Assembly (NCBI GenBank): GCA_023954475.1
Contig: JAMLHW010000003.1
Location: 124,001-188,000, forward strand
DNA: 64,000 nt
Origin: Anaerolineae bacterium
GTDB taxonomy: Bacteria > Chloroflexota > Anaerolineae > Promineifilales > Promineifilaceae
Reading direction: 5' to 3'
Position numbers and translations under genes: made by a program. The notes beneath the pieces are model-generated. The model worked only from the letters and a program-made list of their open reading frames with translations, was not told the origin of the DNA and made no database searches. Each line of letters opens with the position of its first letter. The first letter of the stretch is position 1. This document shows, piece by piece, positions 52,497 to 62,883 of this stretch.

Positions 52497-52587
52497 CGGT
52501 TACAAAATAGTGTACAATTCAGCAAGATAGAGCGCACTTGATGTCTTAAGCAGTTGGAACGTGGAACTATCAAGAGGAAAATCGATA

Positions 52588-52803
52588 ATGCAAGTATATG
52601 CCTATGAACTTACCATGCAAGAAGAGGGAATTCTTACACTAACGAATTTGCCGCTCAACGCCGGTGAGAAGATAGAGGTGATAATTATTCCTCGTTCAGA
52701 ACACCGGCAAACAGAGCTACGGTATCCATTTTGGGGGAAACCACTTAGTTACTCGAATCCGACTGATTCGATTGCTGAAGAGGATTGGGAGGTATTGCAG
52801 TGA
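52588..52803 (+). CDS. Antitoxin partner of the PIN-domain toxin
   Basis: 71 residues. A short beta-rich N-terminal half (YELTMQEEGILTLTNLPLNA, KIEVIIIPR) resembling an AbrB/SpoVT-like fold is followed by FWGKPLSYSNPTDSIAEEDW. The antitoxin role is inferred from its overlap with the toxin gene (GTGA at 52800-52803). GAGG lies upstream of ATG 52588. Confidence 0.7.
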   Translation: MQVYAYELTMQEEGILTLTNLPLNAGEKIEVIIIPRSEHRQTELRYPFWGKPLSYSNPTDSIAEEDWEVLQ

Positions 52804-53192
52804 TCGTGCTGGATACCCACATTTGGGTATGGTGGATTTATAATGATGACAAATTGACCGAGCAATACCGCGAGATTATTCAGAATCACGAAAATGAAGG
52901 GTTGGGCGTCAGTATTTTTTCATGCTGGGAAGTGGCCAAGTTAGTAGAATTAAAGAAACTGGTCCTCCATTGTCCTCTTCGAGAGTGGCTGGAAACGTCG
53001 CTCAATTACCCGGGTATGCGATTACTCAACCTTACGCCAGAAATAGTCATTGAATCAACTCAGCTTCCAGGTAAGTTTCATCGTGATCCGGCAGATCAAA
53101 TTATTGTAGCTACAGCTCGTGTTCATAATTGCCCATTGCTCACGAAGGACGACAGAATTCTCAACTATCCGTATATTGAATTGTTGAACTGA
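52800..53192 (+). CDS. PIN-domain (VapC-like) toxin
   Basis: About 130 residues. The PIN fold starts VLDTHIWVWW with the first metal-binding Asp. FSCWEVAKLVELKK contains the conserved Glu, and HRDPADQIIVATA supplies the later aspartates, ending LLTKDDRIL. These are the residues of metal-dependent RNases. Start GTG 52800 overlaps the antitoxin stop. The pair sits in a stretch without TCGGCCGA (51.9-53.4 kb) and may be acquired. Confidence 0.85.
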   Translation: MIVLDTHIWVWWIYNDDKLTEQYREIIQNHENEGLGVSIFSCWEVAKLVELKKLVLHCPLREWLETSLNYPGMRLLNLTPEIVIESTQLPGKFHRDPADQIIVATARVHNCPLLTKDDRILNYPYIELLN

Positions 53193-56890: not shown

Positions 56891-57709
56891 TCAGGAGTTG
56901 CTGCTGTAGAGGTCATCCATGGCAACGAGAACGTCTTCCAGTTCGTGTACTTCTTCTGTGATCTCGTGTTGCAGGCGCTTGTACCGACTGCTGTCGATAT
57001 CTTTGGCATCGAGAAGCATTGTCTGCGTGTAGATGGTGCCCATTGTTGTGACGGTGTTTTCGAGACGCAACTGCGCCCGTTCCATGGCGTTATCGAGTCG
57101 CTCAATGGTGTCGATTTGACGTTCTTTGCTCTCGATATTGGTTTTAATATCGGTGATGACGGCGGCATTATCTTCGGCCGATAACTGGCGTTGTAGTTGT
57201 AGAATGCGTTTTGCCGCACTGTCCCGATTTTGCAACAATCGGTCACGTTCTATCAGGTAGCGGTCAAGTCGCACGGCGAGATCGTAAATATCTTCAATCC
57301 AATCATCGAATTGATCGGCGATGCTTTGTAGTTCATCGCGCATCGCTGAGTACCTTCCATCACTCATTTCGGCTGTAATCCGAGTGCGATAAGTAAACGC
57401 CTGCTCGATTTGCTGCTGCAATTTCTCATTGCGCAGGCGCTCCGGCTGAAACTCGCTGCGTAACATCTCTGCCACGGCCTGTTGACCGGTCTGGGGGTCG
57501 GTCAGGCTGCTGTAGAGCATGGCGGTTTCAGCCACGACGCCGCCCAGCAAATACCCCCACCACGGAATGATAGGGATGATGTCAGGCCCAAACAAAGTGA
57601 GCAACACGGTCAAAGACAGGATGACAGCGCTTTCCCAGCGGAAAAATGCTTTTTGCAGGATAGCCCGTTGCGCCCGTTTTTCGAGTGATTCGCGGCTGTT
57701 GTGGGACAT
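56891..57709 (-). CDS. Coiled-coil membrane protein next to pspA
   Basis: 272 residues. A basic start, a hydrophobic hairpin (AVILSLTVLLTLFGPDII, PWWGYLLGGVVAE) and a long helical, probably coiled-coil domain to the end. I do not recognise a named family. It lies 81 bases downstream of the PspA-like gene on the same strand, and a membrane-stress role is inferred only from that. The 200 bases between it and rplI hold nothing clear. Confidence 0.7.
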   Translation of the reverse strand: MSHNSRESLEKRAQRAILQKAFFRWESAVILSLTVLLTLFGPDIIPIIPWWGYLLGGVVAETAMLYSSLTDPQTGQQAVAEMLRSEFQPERLRNEKLQQQIEQAFTYRTRITAEMSDGRYSAMRDELQSIADQFDDWIEDIYDLAVRLDRYLIERDRLLQNRDSAAKRILQLQRQLSAEDNAAVITDIKTNIESKERQIDTIERLDNAMERAQLRLENTVTTMGTIYTQTMLLDAKDIDSSRYKRLQHEITEEVHELEDVLVAMDDLYSSNS

Positions 57710-57790
57710 GGCGGTGGCTGGTCAGGTCGTTGTCGCGTGTGGCAATCGGCCGATCACTCTATCGGCCGATTGCCGTTCATGACGGATTGG

Positions 57791-58522
57791 TTATTCGCTT
57801 GTGCTGGCGTCGCTTTCGTAAGACAGCGTATCCGAATCGGCCGAATCGGACAGCCCCAGCCGGCGTTTGCGTTCTTCAAGCTGCATATCGAGCTCAGATC
57901 GGCCGATCACTTCATCCATCTGATCGTCGAGCCGGTCAGCGTACAATTCGCTTTCTGCGCTGGCACGGTCTAGACGAGAACGAATCGAGTCTCCGATGCG
58001 CGCAATGTCCGCATCGCCAACGCCCTCCAAATCATCCAGACTCTTGATTGCTTTAACCGTCGTCTCTTTCGACTTGGCTAGCTGCATCAACGTTTCCAGC
58101 TCCCGCTGTTCGATCTTAATGTCTTTGATACGTGCTTCCAGCTTCAAGCGGGCGCGCTTCAGGGCTTCATACTCGCGTTCCTGGCGCACCCATTGTTCGT
58201 GGTAATTCTCTTGCAGTCTGCGCGTGGAATTAAGCTCTTTTTGTGCCGCAGCCGCCAGGTCGTTTTTGCCCTGCATCAGCAGCATATCGACATTTCGGTC
58301 GAGTTGGTCGCCTTTTTTCTTGTATTCGTTGTATTTGCGTTCCAATGTGCGGACTTCGCCACCGACAGTCGCAGTAGCCTTTTCCAGATCATCGAGATTA
58401 TCTTCCGCGTCGCGAATGTATTGTTTGAGTACTGCGGTGGAATTGGCTTCCAATGCGCGGTCGAGCAGATCGTGCATATTGGCAGAGATCAATGTTTGTG
58501 TTTTTTCAAGAAGTGATGCCAT
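57791..58522 (-). CDS. PspA/IM30 family protein
   Basis: 243 residues, almost wholly helical. It opens with the PspA-type LLEKTQTLISANMHDLLDRA and continues as a coiled coil to about 215, then a Ser/Asp-rich tail. Family members form ESCRT-III-like assemblies that support damaged membranes. The neighbour downstream is an unknown coiled-coil membrane protein, a possible partner. Four copies of TCGGCCGA lie between 57747 and 57905. Confidence 0.88.
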   Translation of the reverse strand: MASLLEKTQTLISANMHDLLDRALEANSTAVLKQYIRDAEDNLDDLEKATATVGGEVRTLERKYNEYKKKGDQLDRNVDMLLMQGKNDLAAAAQKELNSTRRLQENYHEQWVRQEREYEALKRARLKLEARIKDIKIEQRELETLMQLAKSKETTVKAIKSLDDLEGVGDADIARIGDSIRSRLDRASAESELYADRLDDQMDEVIGRSELDMQLEERKRRLGLSDSADSDTLSYESDASTSE

Positions 58523-58626: not shown

Positions 58627-61053
58627 CTACGCTGTTGCCGCAAACTCACCAATCGGCAGTTGAATGCGGATGATAATGCTGTCTTCTGCCGTCGTGTCGA
58701 TACTCATTTTGCCGCCATGTAGCACAATAAGCTCGTTGATGAGTACAAATGCTGAGCCAAACAGGGTGTTTTGCAGAATCGCGAGATCTTTGCGTGTGAA
58801 TAATGCCTGGATTTGGTCGATATCCTGTTCTGAAAAAATGTGATGAAACACATGCAATTCAATAATAGCGTGATTTTCCAGACCGTACACGTGAATTTGT
58901 AAGCAGGGAGTTAGAGTAGGGCGGCAAAGTCGGCTGAAGATAGTGATTAAGCGCCGCAGCGCCAGTTCCAACAGTTGCGAATTGCTGGCGAGAACGGATG
59001 TATCTGCGTTGGCGGTTAACTGAATGATGGGTTGGTTTGGCGGGGCAGTGCGGTTAATGCGGTCGCATATGTCGCCTAACAATGCACTCACCGAGGTACT
59101 CAGATTTGTCTGTCTATCTGTATCATCTGGTTTGGTTCTGGTTTTGAGCTCGACCAATAATGTGAAATCGGTGACCATTTCCACCAGTTGTGTACTGCCA
59201 TTGTCAATAGCTACCAGTGATGCTTTCAAATCGGTTACGTTTTCGGCCGATTCGACGCTGTGCAAAATCGATTGCGAATGGTTACTGACAATGTTCAACG
59301 GATCGATAAACCGTGGGCCCAACAGATCGAGAATACTTTGTCGCAGTTGTTGAAAATCGGTTGCTTCGACATGTTCTATGGCAAAATGCCGATCCAGACG
59401 TGCTTCAATCACACCGAGTAACTCATCCGCATCATATGGTTTAGTGACGTATTCATCAACTCCCAATTGGCGGCCACGCTTGATGTGATGCTCATCGTTG
59501 CGCGCCGTCAGGAAAATGAACGGGATGGTGATCCAGTCAGCATGCAGCTGCACCTGTTGCAAAAAGGTGTAGCCGTCCATCTCCGGCATAACAATGTCGC
59601 ACAAGATGAGGTCGATGGCATGTTCAGCCAGCGTTTGTAAACCTGCGATGCCGTTTTCGGCCGAAAACACCTGATAACGATAGCGTGACTCTCCTGCTGC
59701 AGCTTCCAACAGATCGCGTAACCCGTCACGTAACAATTGTTCATCTTCAACAATAAGCAGATTGACTTGTGCAGGCGCTTGCGGTGTCACTTTACCTTTT
59801 ATCTGGTTTACTTGCGGATCATAGATTGGCAGACACGCGGTAAACGTACTTCCGTACCCAGGCTGTGATTCTACTTCAATGTGCCCACCATGCAGCGCGA
59901 TCAGATCGCGAGCAATTGTCAGACCAGCTCCCGATCCTTGCTGCTCCAACTGCGGCCGATCGTGTTGATAAAAAAGATCGAATAATTTAGGTATCGCAGC
60001 AGTCGGGACACCAATACCATGATCGGTAACAGCAACGCGCACAGTCGTATCTGTAGATGTAGCCTCAAGCATTATCGATCCGGGTTGACTGTCTCGCGGA
60101 GTAAACTTGATGGCGTTGTCGACAAGTCGAGAAAAGATATCGGCTAGTGTCGCCGGGTTGCCCCAAATCGGAGGCAATTTGTCGTCGATGGCGTAGATGA
60201 ACTCGATACTGCGTGTAGCTGCCTGTGCTTCGTATTCCCGACCCACCTGACGCACCAGATTGCCAACATCGTCTATTGGTCGGGCGTGCTGCAGAATGGG
60301 TTGTCGTGCTTTGCCACTGGCCAGATCGATGACGAGGATCAAGTCGCGTACCAATTGCATCAGTCGCGAAACGCCAACTTGAATTCCTTTGAGATATTCG
60401 ACGATGAGTTCGGGGTCTTCCTCTTCATTTGCCAAACTATCGTTCAAGATTTCAAAATAGGCTGTGACAAAATTGAGCGGCGTGCGGAATTCATGTTGCA
60501 AAGTGTGCAACATGTGACGGCGCTTGGTTTCGGCCGAATGTTGGCGTTGTGTTCTGCGCCGTAGCGTCAAGTCCAACTGTGCTTCGATCAACGTCAACAA
60601 ATCCGCAGGATTAAACGGTTTTGTGATGTACAATTCCACGCCACTAAGGCGGCCACGCGCTACATCTTCCGCTGTGGTACGAGCTGTCAAGAACGTGAAC
60701 GGAATGTGAACCCACTGTGGCTGTTGACGCACAGCTTCAAGTAACGCATAGCCGTTCATCTCCGGCATATTGACATCAGTGACGATCAAATCGGGTGTAT
60801 ACTCGGCCATCACACGGAGGGCATCTTGTCCATTTGCCGCCTTGAGAATGGTGATGTCGTATCGCGATGCCTCCATTTCCAGTAATTCGGCAAATCCGTC
60901 CAGCAGCGACGGGTCGTCTTCAACTAACAGGACGGTAGCTTGTGGCAGCACGTCATCGTTCGTCGCAGCGGTATTGGGGGCCATTGCAGTCGATGATTGT
61001 TTCTGATTTGATAGAGGAGTTTGTAAGACCATGCAGTTTGCCGACGACAGCAT
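58627..61053 (-). CDS. Hybrid response regulator/histidine kinase with a degenerate second kinase module
   Basis: About 808 residues: receiver 1 (about 40-165; VEDD, Asp in IVTDVNMPEMNG), HisKA with phospho-accepting His in LQHEFRTPLNF, HATPase (VDNAIKFTP, DHGIGVP, GSGAGLTIARDLI), and receiver 2 (about 430-555; Asp in ILCDIVMPEMDG). A second HisKA/HATPase-like region follows, in which the His is replaced (LGPRFIDPLNI) and the ATP-binding boxes are eroded. The repeated REC-DHp-CA order suggests internal duplication. There is no membrane segment. Start ATG 61053 is uncertain; ATG 60984 is possible. Confidence 0.88.
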   Translation of the reverse strand: MLSSANCMVLQTPLSNQKQSSTAMAPNTAATNDDVLPQATVLLVEDDPSLLDGFAELLEMEASRYDITILKAANGQDALRVMAEYTPDLIVTDVNMPEMNGYALLEAVRQQPQWVHIPFTFLTARTTAEDVARGRLSGVELYITKPFNPADLLTLIEAQLDLTLRRRTQRQHSAETKRRHMLHTLQHEFRTPLNFVTAYFEILNDSLANEEEDPELIVEYLKGIQVGVSRLMQLVRDLILVIDLASGKARQPILQHARPIDDVGNLVRQVGREYEAQAATRSIEFIYAIDDKLPPIWGNPATLADIFSRLVDNAIKFTPRDSQPGSIMLEATSTDTTVRVAVTDHGIGVPTAAIPKLFDLFYQHDRPQLEQQGSGAGLTIARDLIALHGGHIEVESQPGYGSTFTACLPIYDPQVNQIKGKVTPQAPAQVNLLIVEDEQLLRDGLRDLLEAAAGESRYRYQVFSAENGIAGLQTLAEHAIDLILCDIVMPEMDGYTFLQQVQLHADWITIPFIFLTARNDEHHIKRGRQLGVDEYVTKPYDADELLGVIEARLDRHFAIEHVEATDFQQLRQSILDLLGPRFIDPLNIVSNHSQSILHSVESAENVTDLKASLVAIDNGSTQLVEMVTDFTLLVELKTRTKPDDTDRQTNLSTSVSALLGDICDRINRTAPPNQPIIQLTANADTSVLASNSQLLELALRRLITIFSRLCRPTLTPCLQIHVYGLENHAIIELHVFHHIFSEQDIDQIQALFTRKDLAILQNTLFGSAFVLINELIVLHGGKMSIDTTAEDSIIIRIQLPIGEFAATA

Positions 61054-61203: not shown

Positions 61204-62883
61204 ATGGTTTTATTAGCAAGGGCATTATATGATCACCATTTGATAGTTCTGCGCGTGATCGGCGAATGGTGGGAAGTCGATCTCACCGGCATGGACAAGG
61301 ATGCGGCCGTAACTGTGTTGGCCGACACATTGCAAGCCCTGGATTTGACGCATGAGATGCTGTTTTTGCCGGAGGAAGAGGTTGCAGCTCTGCATGCCCT
61401 GGCGGCTGGTGGTGGACGTGTTCCGGTGGCGATGTTCAGCCGCCGGTATGGGGATATTCGGCCGATGGGTCCGGGTAAACTGGAGCGCGAAGAGCCGTGG
61501 CTTGCACCGGAATCTCCGGCCGAAGGGCTGTGGTATCGTGGGTTTCTCTATCGCGGGTTTGACTCGGCCGATGATGAGCCGGTTGAATACTTCTATCTGC
61601 CCGACGAATTGTTGGCGCAACTGCCGTCGGCGCAGGTGATGGATTCGGCCGAAATCGTTACTGAAGACGCCATGCCGGTAGCTACACTGACGGCGGCGGC
61701 ACCAGCCGCTGTCCCCGAACTGTTCGCCGCTGCGCCGGGCGACGCCATAGACGATCTAACCGCTTTGCTCAGCGAGGTGCAGCGCCTTGCGCCGGAACGC
61801 GATTTACCGTCCTCATCGCTGGCATACCTGCTCGACAAACATCCGTCGCGACAAAATCTGCTGCTGCGCCTCGCCTATGAAATGAACCTGTTACGCCGCA
61901 GTGACGGAATCTTGCGTCCGGCACGCGCTGCCATGACCTGGCTGCAACAAGCGCGTGCCGTACAGCTCGTCGCTTTGATGGAAGCGTGGAGCCAAAGCAA
62001 CTGGAGCGAACTGCATCATACACCGGGTTTGGTGTGTGAAGCCGGCAGTTGGGAATACGATCCCATCGCCGCGCGGACAACGTTGCTGGACGCCATGCCG
62101 CACACCGACGAATGGGTTGCCATAGACGCGCTCATCGACGCGATCAAGACGCACACGCCTGATTTCCAACGGCCCAACGGCGATTACAGATCATGGTATA
62201 TTCGCGATCAAGCGACTGATGTCTATCTTTCCGGATTCGAAAGCTGGGATGATGTTGAGGGACGGCAACTACATTTTATCTTAACGCAGGTGATGTTTTG
62301 GCTGGGTATGGTTGATGTGGCTGATAATGCCGTGCGTTTTTCGGCACTGGCGCTGGATTGGTTGCACGGGCGATCTCCTGTTGCGGATGAAGTGCGTGTA
62401 CCATTGGTCGTCAATGCGGATGGCGTTTTGGTTGTGCCGCACAATGCCGGACGCCGCGATCGATTCCAGACTTCACGCATTGCCGATCCGTTGCCGGTGT
62501 TGCGCGGCAAACCGTTTCACTATCGGTTGTCGCCGGCGTCACTGGAACGTGCGCGGGCACAGGGCATTGAGCCGCAGCGCGTGCTGGCCTTTTTGGAGGA
62601 AGTGAGTAATCGGCCGATACCTGCAGCTACCAAACGCGCCTTGGAACGCTGGGCCGAAAACGGCGTTGAAGCACGTCTGGAATCAGTAGTCATTTTACGC
62701 GTTCGTGACGCCGCTGTATTGGACACATTGCGTCGCAACCCCAAAACGCGCCCCTTCATCGGTGAAGCGCTGGGCGATCTGGCCGCTGTCGTACGTCGTG
62801 CCGATTGGCAGGCATTGCGTGATGTCACTGCTCAATTGGGACTGCTGCTCGCTGTTGACGAGGACGAATCGTCTGCTTCATAA
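61204..62883 (+). CDS. XPB/Ssl2-like helicase-associated domain protein
   Basis: 559 residues. The C-terminal part (about 390-520) fits the helicase-associated XPB/Ssl2-like domain: VPLVVNADGVLVVPHNAGRR, FHYRLSPASLERARAQGI, AFLEEVSNRPIPAATKRALE. There is no Walker A or DEAD box, so it is not a helicase by itself. The N-terminal half is helical with a Ser/Ala-rich linker near 150-180. This type is frequent in Chloroflexota and Actinobacteria next to XPB helicases, but none is adjacent here. GAGG lies before ATG 61204. Confidence 0.75.
   Translation: MVLLARALYDHHLIVLRVIGEWWEVDLTGMDKDAAVTVLADTLQALDLTHEMLFLPEEEVAALHALAAGGGRVPVAMFSRRYGDIRPMGPGKLEREEPWLAPESPAEGLWYRGFLYRGFDSADDEPVEYFYLPDELLAQLPSAQVMDSAEIVTEDAMPVATLTAAAPAAVPELFAAAPGDAIDDLTALLSEVQRLAPERDLPSSSLAYLLDKHPSRQNLLLRLAYEMNLLRRSDGILRPARAAMTWLQQARAVQLVALMEAWSQSNWSELHHTPGLVCEAGSWEYDPIAARTTLLDAMPHTDEWVAIDALIDAIKTHTPDFQRPNGDYRSWYIRDQATDVYLSGFESWDDVEGRQLHFILTQVMFWLGMVDVADNAVRFSALALDWLHGRSPVADEVRVPLVVNADGVLVVPHNAGRRDRFQTSRIADPLPVLRGKPFHYRLSPASLERARAQGIEPQRVLAFLEEVSNRPIPAATKRALERWAENGVEARLESVVILRVRDAAVLDTLRRNPKTRPFIGEALGDLAAVVRRADWQALRDVTAQLGLLLAVDEDESSAS

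Follow-up and report, generated by a model that had tools for sequence, protein, structure and literature searches.

Domain organization of the kinase gene

The analyzed window is a stretch of 64,000 nucleotides from an Anaerolineae bacterium. On its minus strand lies a gene for an 808-aa protein in which a receiver (REC), a dimerisation domain (DHp), and an ATP-binding domain (CA) occur in this order twice. The features of the gene and of its downstream neighbors are as follows.

58627..61053, minus strand: whole gene, REC1-DHp1-CA1-REC2-pseudo-DHp2-pseudo-CA2; 808 aa, ATG start
60586..60933, minus strand: REC1, residues 41-156, phospho-Asp93 (Pfam PF00072; Asp and Lys in 38/38)
60337..60522, minus strand: DHp1 (HisKA), residues 178-239 (Pfam PF00512)
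60493..60495, minus strand: codon of the phospho-acceptor His187 (His in 38/38)
59824..60159, minus strand: CA1 (HATPase_c), residues 299-410, with N, G1, and G2 boxes intact (Pfam PF02518)
59407..59757, minus strand: REC2, residues 433-549, phospho-Asp486 (Pfam PF00072; Asp in 38/38, Lys in 39/39)
59341..59433, minus strand: second signalling helix, residues 541-571 (a single length in 34/34 full-length proteins)
59137..59376, minus strand: pseudo-DHp2, residues 560-639 (profile alignment to DHp1; AlphaFold helices)
59314..59316, minus strand: codon of Pro580, which replaces the phospho-His (non-His in 39/39)
58645..59118, minus strand: pseudo-CA2 and the linker before it, residues 646-803 (lacks the N-box Asn and the G1 Asp)
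57791..58522, minus strand: pspA (PF04012, E 3e-18), 104 bp downstream of the kinase gene, a possible functional partner
56891..57709, minus strand: 272-aa protein of the conserved gene row (synteny), with no Pfam or NCBIfam match

The repeated order of receiver, dimerisation, and ATP-binding domains, claimed in a preliminary description of this DNA, was borne out by Pfam for the first half and REC2 and by profile-profile alignment for the rest; beyond residue 549, Pfam gave no match even at E<=1. The same description had pointed to a change of LQHEFRTPLN into LGPRFIDPLN. Both motifs were found exactly, at residues 185-194 and 578-587, respectively, and His187 maps to Pro580.

Homology and fold of the second half

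The two halves were aligned as profiles with hhalign, using 38 first-half and 35 second-half DHp-CA sequences. They aligned over 243 columns with an E-value of 1.8e-51, as the preliminary description had expected. Single domains also matched their counterparts (REC1 and REC2, 1.7e-71; DHp1 and DHp2, 6.8e-29; CA1 and CA2, 2e-22), and two mismatched domain pairs used as controls gave no alignment (E 0.49 over 26 columns and 0.036 over 8 columns).

An AlphaFold model of the second half, built from 34 sequences, had a mean pLDDT of 77.2 and a pTM of 0.74. The model resembled histidine-kinase cores, with VIA Z scores of 17.8 for 4u7n and 17.7 for DivL (4q20) and a best Foldseek E-value of 6.5e-12. 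Comparison of the second-half sequence profile with the PDB gave HK853 (5.9e-15) and DivL (1.5e-12). The second half is a DHp-CA module by both fold and homology. The full-length model reached a pTM of only 0.56, from which no arrangement of the halves can be derived, and it was not used for that purpose.

Loss of catalytic residues in the second half

Proteins from 39 loci were aligned, namely those of 38 genomes matching at E<=1e-60 and a 288-aa fragment at a contig end in genome G020; genome G015 is represented in this set by locus L032. His187, Asn313, and Asp344 of the first half correspond to Pro580, Ile705, and Val735 of the second, and G373, G375, and G377 to L764, G766, and A768. The His, the N-box Asn, the G1 Asp, and the tested glycines were present in all 38 readable first halves. 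At position 580 of the second halves, His was found in none of 39 proteins, the residue being Pro in 29, Arg in five, and Asp, Ala, Lys, Leu, or Ile in one each; Tyr did not occur. The N-box Asn and the G1 Asp were each absent from all 36 readable second halves. Erosion of the glycines was incomplete, since Gly persisted in 7/36 and 1/11 proteins at the G1 positions and in 3/35, 9/35, and 2/35 at the G2 positions. The eroded ATP-binding boxes of the preliminary description were thus recovered, with that reservation for the glycines. Because the losses of His, Asn, and Asp are fixed in every readable relative, they lie far beyond chance. In both receivers, the acidic pair, the Asp, and the Lys were present in every readable case. 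The fully conserved REC2 is the likely input of the dead module, a point that goes beyond the preliminary description.

These residues suggest that the first half is a Rec-controlled histidine kinase, with a REC directly before an intact DHp-CA in 38/38 proteins, and that the protein can be classed as a hybrid histidine kinase, in which a kinase core predicted to be active is followed by a REC with its Asp. The second half, lacking the phospho-His, the N-box Asn, and the G1 Asp, is predicted not to be an active HisKA/HATPase_c kinase. It might instead autophosphorylate on another residue, as claimed for RcsD, which has no conserved His and is reported in PMC3762810 to be labelled by ATP. We consider this highly improbable: the Asn and Asp are missing from 36/36 second halves, and the only column with His in at least half of the 34 full-length proteins is 779, in CA2, with none in DHp2.

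Signalling helix and faces of the DHp domains

The distance from the REC Lys to the His position was 42 residues in 38/38 first halves, in 39/39 second halves, and in 49/49 single REC-HK loci outside the family. Across the 34 full-length proteins, length was constant in no segment except the two signalling helices, and identity was at least as high in the second helix (41.1%) as in the first (38.2%). Both helices extend without a break from the receiver to the DHp domain in the full-length model (residues 149-208 and 542-602). For LvrB, PMC13269768 describes that REC phosphorylation induces a coiled coil in the signalling helix and thereby releases CA, and that Rec-controlled kinases favor helix lengths that are multiples of seven. 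The spacing of 42 is such a multiple, although our span may differ from the one defined there.

We further compared alpha1 of the two DHp domains after the His position by a position-free periodicity test. In DHp1 every face of the helix was conserved (8316 of 10000 shuffles were as periodic), whereas in DHp2 conservation was confined to a single face, that of the core (0 of 10000 shuffles). The variable side of DHp2, at a phase of 269 degrees, was turned to the docking positions of HK853 (280-340) and not to the core positions (60-120). Upstream of the His position, alpha1 of DHp2 had a slight edge in conservation (1.29 bits, against 1.58 in DHp1), and alpha2 was about equally conserved (1.37 vs 1.28 bits). 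A docking triple chosen beforehand from PDB titles showed 2.98 bits in DHp2 vs 0.98 in DHp1, a difference that is suggestive only, as it was reached in 0.087 of shuffles. A count of 'exposed' positions (0 of 20000 shuffles) was discounted, the positions having been picked after the entropies were seen, and the position-free test was relied on. By these patterns, the dead half appears to have kept the lever and the dimer core while losing catalysis, and it probably lost the response-regulator docking face.

The probable loss of this face bears on the idea that the dead DHp2 docks a phosphorylated receiver, either its own REC2 or a separate regulator, and relays its state in the manner of DivL, which senses DivK~P through its kinase core, as described in PMC4211667. 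DivL was among the best fold matches and also matched by profile; however, other histidine kinases reached equal fold scores, and the alpha1 face with the docking positions is conserved only in DHp1 and varies in DHp2, while DivL keeps its docking surface. We regard this reading as quite improbable.

Distribution and origin of the tandem gene

The tandem gene was found in 38 of the 52 genomes of the family to which the window belongs (E<=1e-60), and open full-length frames of at least 760 aa numbered 34 across the family. The copy in G033 (L154) carried five stop codons (four TGA and one TAA) in the later part of the match and is either broken or misassembled.

A maximum-likelihood tree was computed from REC and DHp (94 rows, midpoint root; some rows, e.g. 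L151, on long branches); the CA domains were excluded, CA2 having diverged too far. One branch set the 38 first halves apart and a second branch did the same for the 38 second halves, each with support of 100/99, and the two clades grouped together at 94/97. The nearest outside row was L162, a single REC-HK of another family that also adjoins pspA. One old tandem duplication would explain all copies. The dead state is family-wide and not a local decay. Its single origin and its spread through the family had not been part of the preliminary description, nor had the conserved neighborhood with pspA described below.

When the full-length profile was used at E<=1e-110, 93 matches were obtained among 396 class genomes. 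The match ran along REC-HK-REC into the second half in 23 family genomes (two of them cut at contig ends), and it covered one unit in 70 non-family genomes, with the exception of G266. In that genome the match crossed a stop into an adjacent gene, and G266 was rejected as an ancestor with a live second half: it holds a separate tandem of two REC-HK genes 27 bp apart, both with the phospho-His (L184:2877-5177, minus strand, another family). No intermediate with a live second half was found among the 396 class genomes. For the comparison outside the family, 49 REC-HK loci were aligned (from 48 of those 70 non-family genomes and from G036), and the eight tested catalytic and receiver residues were present in 49/49.

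A search of other genome contigs gave 312 relatives, of which 80 loci were retained. Among the matches listed (E<=1e-20), only L031 and L032 of these 80 had a near end-to-end ORF with both halves; they belong to Anaerolineae and Anaerolineales MAGs, and their rows were identical to those of G007 and G015. Seven loci with wide or otherwise notable tblastn coverage (L054, L059, L064, L075, L091, L099, and L108) were dismissed, since their matches spread over neighboring genes and no single ORF held both units. Viral contigs gave five pattern matches, with no relative among them.

Conservation and selection

Mean pairwise identity among the 34 full-length proteins was 54.5% for REC1, 52.7% for DHp1, and 38.4% for CA1 with its linker; the corresponding values in the second half were 55.2% for REC2, 43.7% for DHp2, and 22.6% for CA2. 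CA2 was the most variable domain, with 13 lengths in the 34 proteins, and no strongly conserved CA2 surface was seen. The residue E635 was invariant in all 34. Ratios of dN/dS were obtained, where computable, from 14 chosen within-family pairs and ranged from 0.01 to 0.11 for DHp1 (10 pairs), 0.01 to 0.20 for DHp2 (13 pairs), 0.08 to 0.16 for CA1 with linker (9 pairs), and 0.07 to 0.50 for CA2 (11 pairs). The value of 0.50 came from the pair L129/L139, with a dS of 2.43, and the next highest CA2 value was 0.25. Both halves therefore appear to be under purifying selection, REC2 and DHp2 being held firmly and CA2 loosely.

These figures also weigh on the view that the second half is a passive remnant, which only holds the dimer together or is being lost and has no signalling role. 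The low identity and varied length of CA2, its dN/dS of 0.50 in one pair, and the stops inside the match of the G033 copy are what such a remnant would show. Against it stand the 34 open full-length frames, the DHp2 ratios, the invariant E635, and a REC2 that is as conserved as REC1 and never lacks its Asp. We judge a passive remnant improbable.

Gene neighborhood and linkage to pspA

In the common family order, genes for proteins of about 980 aa and about 210 aa, a MutL/GlmL-like protein, a KOW-motif protein, and a protein of about 200 aa precede the kinase gene, which is followed by pspA, a TPR/zinc protein gene, a gene of the 272-aa type, rplI, rodZ, and rimO. Among the 36 informative loci, in which the kinase gene is uncut by a contig end, pspA lay downstream on the same strand in 30. 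The gap was 22-381 bp in 26 of them (104 bp in the window), and two genes lay between in the other four, L125, L127, L145, and L146, all of one genus. The intervening proteins of L125 and L127 are of 426 and 357 aa and zinc-ribbon-like by a weak Pfam match. The six loci with no downstream pspA were L032, L129, L130, L139, L140, and L151. Outside the family, pspA lay directly downstream of the REC-HK in at least 17 of 49 loci, a lower bound because some of these loci are short; 10 of the 17 also had a gene of the 272-aa type, and none had a rodZ match in the available flank.

With a close pspA defined at E<=1e-50, the 52 family genomes comprised 33 with hybrid and close pspA, five with the hybrid alone, three with pspA alone, and 11 with neither, eight of the latter belonging to one genus. 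One of the three 'pspA alone' genomes is G020, which nevertheless has the hybrid fragment. The five genomes with the hybrid alone were G005, G015, G072, G073, and G074; some are relatives in the same genus, and G072 is only 69% complete. No pspA was found at E<=1e-20 in G005, G073, and G074 (one genus; loci L129, L139, and L140), all of which have kept the kinase gene. By these counts the linkage is old and frequent, yet the gene can do without pspA.

Several further observations were made in the window. Between pspA and the gene of the 272-aa type (57709-57791), the window lacks the TPR/zinc-ribbon-like gene that many relatives have at this place. Searches of the same genome for this gene (E<=1e-8) and for the MutL-like protein of the relatives were empty, results that weigh little. 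Upstream of the kinase gene, a divergent gene at 61204-62883 on the plus strand encodes a protein of 559 aa that matches a helicase C-terminal domain (PF13625) and stands where relatives have the MutL-like and KOW block; a similar gene adjoins the kinase gene in L130 and is found close to it in L032 and L129. Elsewhere in the genome (G000:C21:54962-55651) there is another PspA-like gene, a distant one with 38% identity, and many family genomes have such a second copy. Two small overlapping ORFs of 80 and 135 aa at 52561-53192 on the plus strand have the look of a VapBC-type toxin-antitoxin pair; the longer has a PIN domain (E 2e-18), and the shorter gave no Pfam match. No tRNA was found in the 64-kb window.

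The gene upstream of the REC-HK was scanned in eight outside loci chosen from 22. It encoded a GAF-bearing histidine kinase in L158, L159, L161, and L185, an AAA/Trans_reg_C protein in L188, L200, and L208, and a beta-lactamase-like protein in L196; the family's own upstream protein (L118) had no Pfam match. An upstream sensor kinase feeding REC1 would fit only the first four of these loci.

The neighborhood raises the possibility that the output is in trans, phosphorylation of REC2 causing DHp2-CA2 to take up or let go of a partner, with PspA-linked control of envelope stress as the likeliest setting. The downstream pspA in 30/36 family loci, mostly at short distance, would agree with this, as would the outside REC-HK loci that directly precede pspA with no rodZ in the flank and the joint presence or absence of hybrid and close pspA in 33 and 11 of the 52 genomes. 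However, five genomes have the gene and no close pspA, eight of the 11 'neither' genomes are a single genus, and CA2 has no strongly conserved surface. Synteny within the family was not accepted as proof of a function, because the entire block, rplI, rodZ, and rimO included, moves as one there. We hold an output in trans to be unlikely, though it deserves more weight than the alternatives above. The phage-shock survey PMC11237479 mentions Chloroflexi for a PspA-PspAA fusion.

Proposed mechanism

The second half probably works as a regulator by mechanical means and not as an enzyme. Our preferred reading, held tentatively, is that a REC-DHp-CA unit was duplicated and that the second unit became a Rec-controlled pseudokinase, a clamp driven by REC2 that acts on the first kinase (HK1) in cis. 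The duplication of the Rec-controlled histidine kinase gene would have occurred once, in tandem, before the family diversified. The first unit presumably remained an active kinase, and the second would have kept its receiver, signalling helix, and DHp dimer core. Gone from the second unit would be the phospho-His and the ATP site and, in all likelihood, also the face on which response regulators dock.

In the proposed sequence of events, REC1 would be phosphorylated from outside and would switch HK1 on through the signalling helix, as in LvrB. HK1 would then phosphorylate REC2 (from His187 to Asp486), a transfer we assume by analogy with ordinary hybrid kinases, or another kinase may do so. 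REC2 would shift its own signalling helix and so alter the geometry of the dead DHp2-CA2 dimer, which would thereby clamp the same homodimer mechanically and set or end the output of HK1 in cis. The data show the architecture, the losses, the single origin, the selection, and the constant lever length; all phosphotransfers, the clamp itself, and the direction in which it would act (on or off) are inferred. For a part that kept a lever and a dimer core and lost catalysis, the simplest role would be a mechanical one, in which the state of REC2 fixes the geometry of DHp2, and we read the dead half as a cis clamp driven by REC2. The precedent for the lever is LvrB (PMC13269768).

Control of HK1 in cis is our first choice because the two units always form one chain in intact copies and CA2 has no fixed surface; so variable a CA2 is easier to reconcile with action in cis than with a conserved surface for a partner. 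On the other side, the fixed helix length and core conservation could serve dimerisation alone, with no signalling, and the linkage to pspA allows an output in trans instead. The preliminary description had suggested a pseudokinase that regulates the first half, in principle like those of JAK-type kinases. The pseudokinase part is strongly supported, as the dead state is ancestral, fixed in the family, and under selection; JAK-like regulation of the first half by the second would be compatible with the data, cis control being the preferred direction. More generally, and with greater hesitation, we propose that a receiver joined to a kinase core dead in both catalysis and docking may form a phosphorylation-driven mechanical clamp on its active twin, retained by the family and often beside pspA.

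Comparison with known systems

The JH2-JH1 arrangement of JAKs joins a pseudokinase in one chain to an active kinase that shares its fold; this fold is the unrelated protein-kinase one, and in JAKs the pseudokinase precedes the kinase. In the present protein the putative pseudokinase follows the kinase and has its own receiver, and control in cis is likewise possible by analogy.

A close likeness in domain order is LvrB of Leptospira (PDB 8vc9), in which the domains run REC-DHp-CA and alpha5 of REC continues through the signalling helix into DHp. This architecture is shared by the first half and by the 49 single REC-HK loci. LvrB differs in that it is a single, catalytically active unit, with no second REC and no dead kinase core. 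In ordinary hybrid histidine kinases, too, a kinase such as HK1, active as judged from its residues, is followed by a REC with an intact Asp; here a dead DHp-CA follows REC2, and a second REC stands in front.

DivL of Caulobacter (PDB 4q20) also has a kinase core that lacks the phospho-His, and its fold is very similar. Its dead core carries signals with no kinase activity through a conserved docking face (PMC4211667). DivL is a separate protein with PAS domains, Tyr for His, and a retained docking face. In the window protein no PAS domain, which DivL carries at its N terminus, matched Pfam at E<=1, and the second half has neither the Tyr nor a conserved docking face. Unlike DivL, its core is fused behind a kinase predicted to be active, mostly has Pro for His, has lost the ATP-site residues, and has its docking face freed. 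RcsD likewise has a kinase-like region with no conserved His within a phosphorelay, and PMC3762810 indicates that a missing His does not exclude ATP labelling; RcsD, by the same source, acts through an HPt domain, and no HPt domain matched the window protein in Pfam at E<=1.

In the open-access literature, nothing was found on histidine pseudokinases with a degenerate HATPase or on those of Chloroflexota, and titles and abstract starts gave no tandem, duplicated, dual, or two-domain histidine kinase of this kind. The bacterial pseudo-histidine kinases found there, DivL and RcsD, are separate proteins. Here an active unit, as predicted, and its dead twin lie in one chain, derived from one duplication, with about 39 orthologous loci for comparison. 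The dead unit, with receiver and lever kept, offers a natural test of whether a lever of the LvrB type is used beyond the gating of catalysis, and also of whether control by a fused pseudokinase, as in JAKs, arose in two-component signalling.
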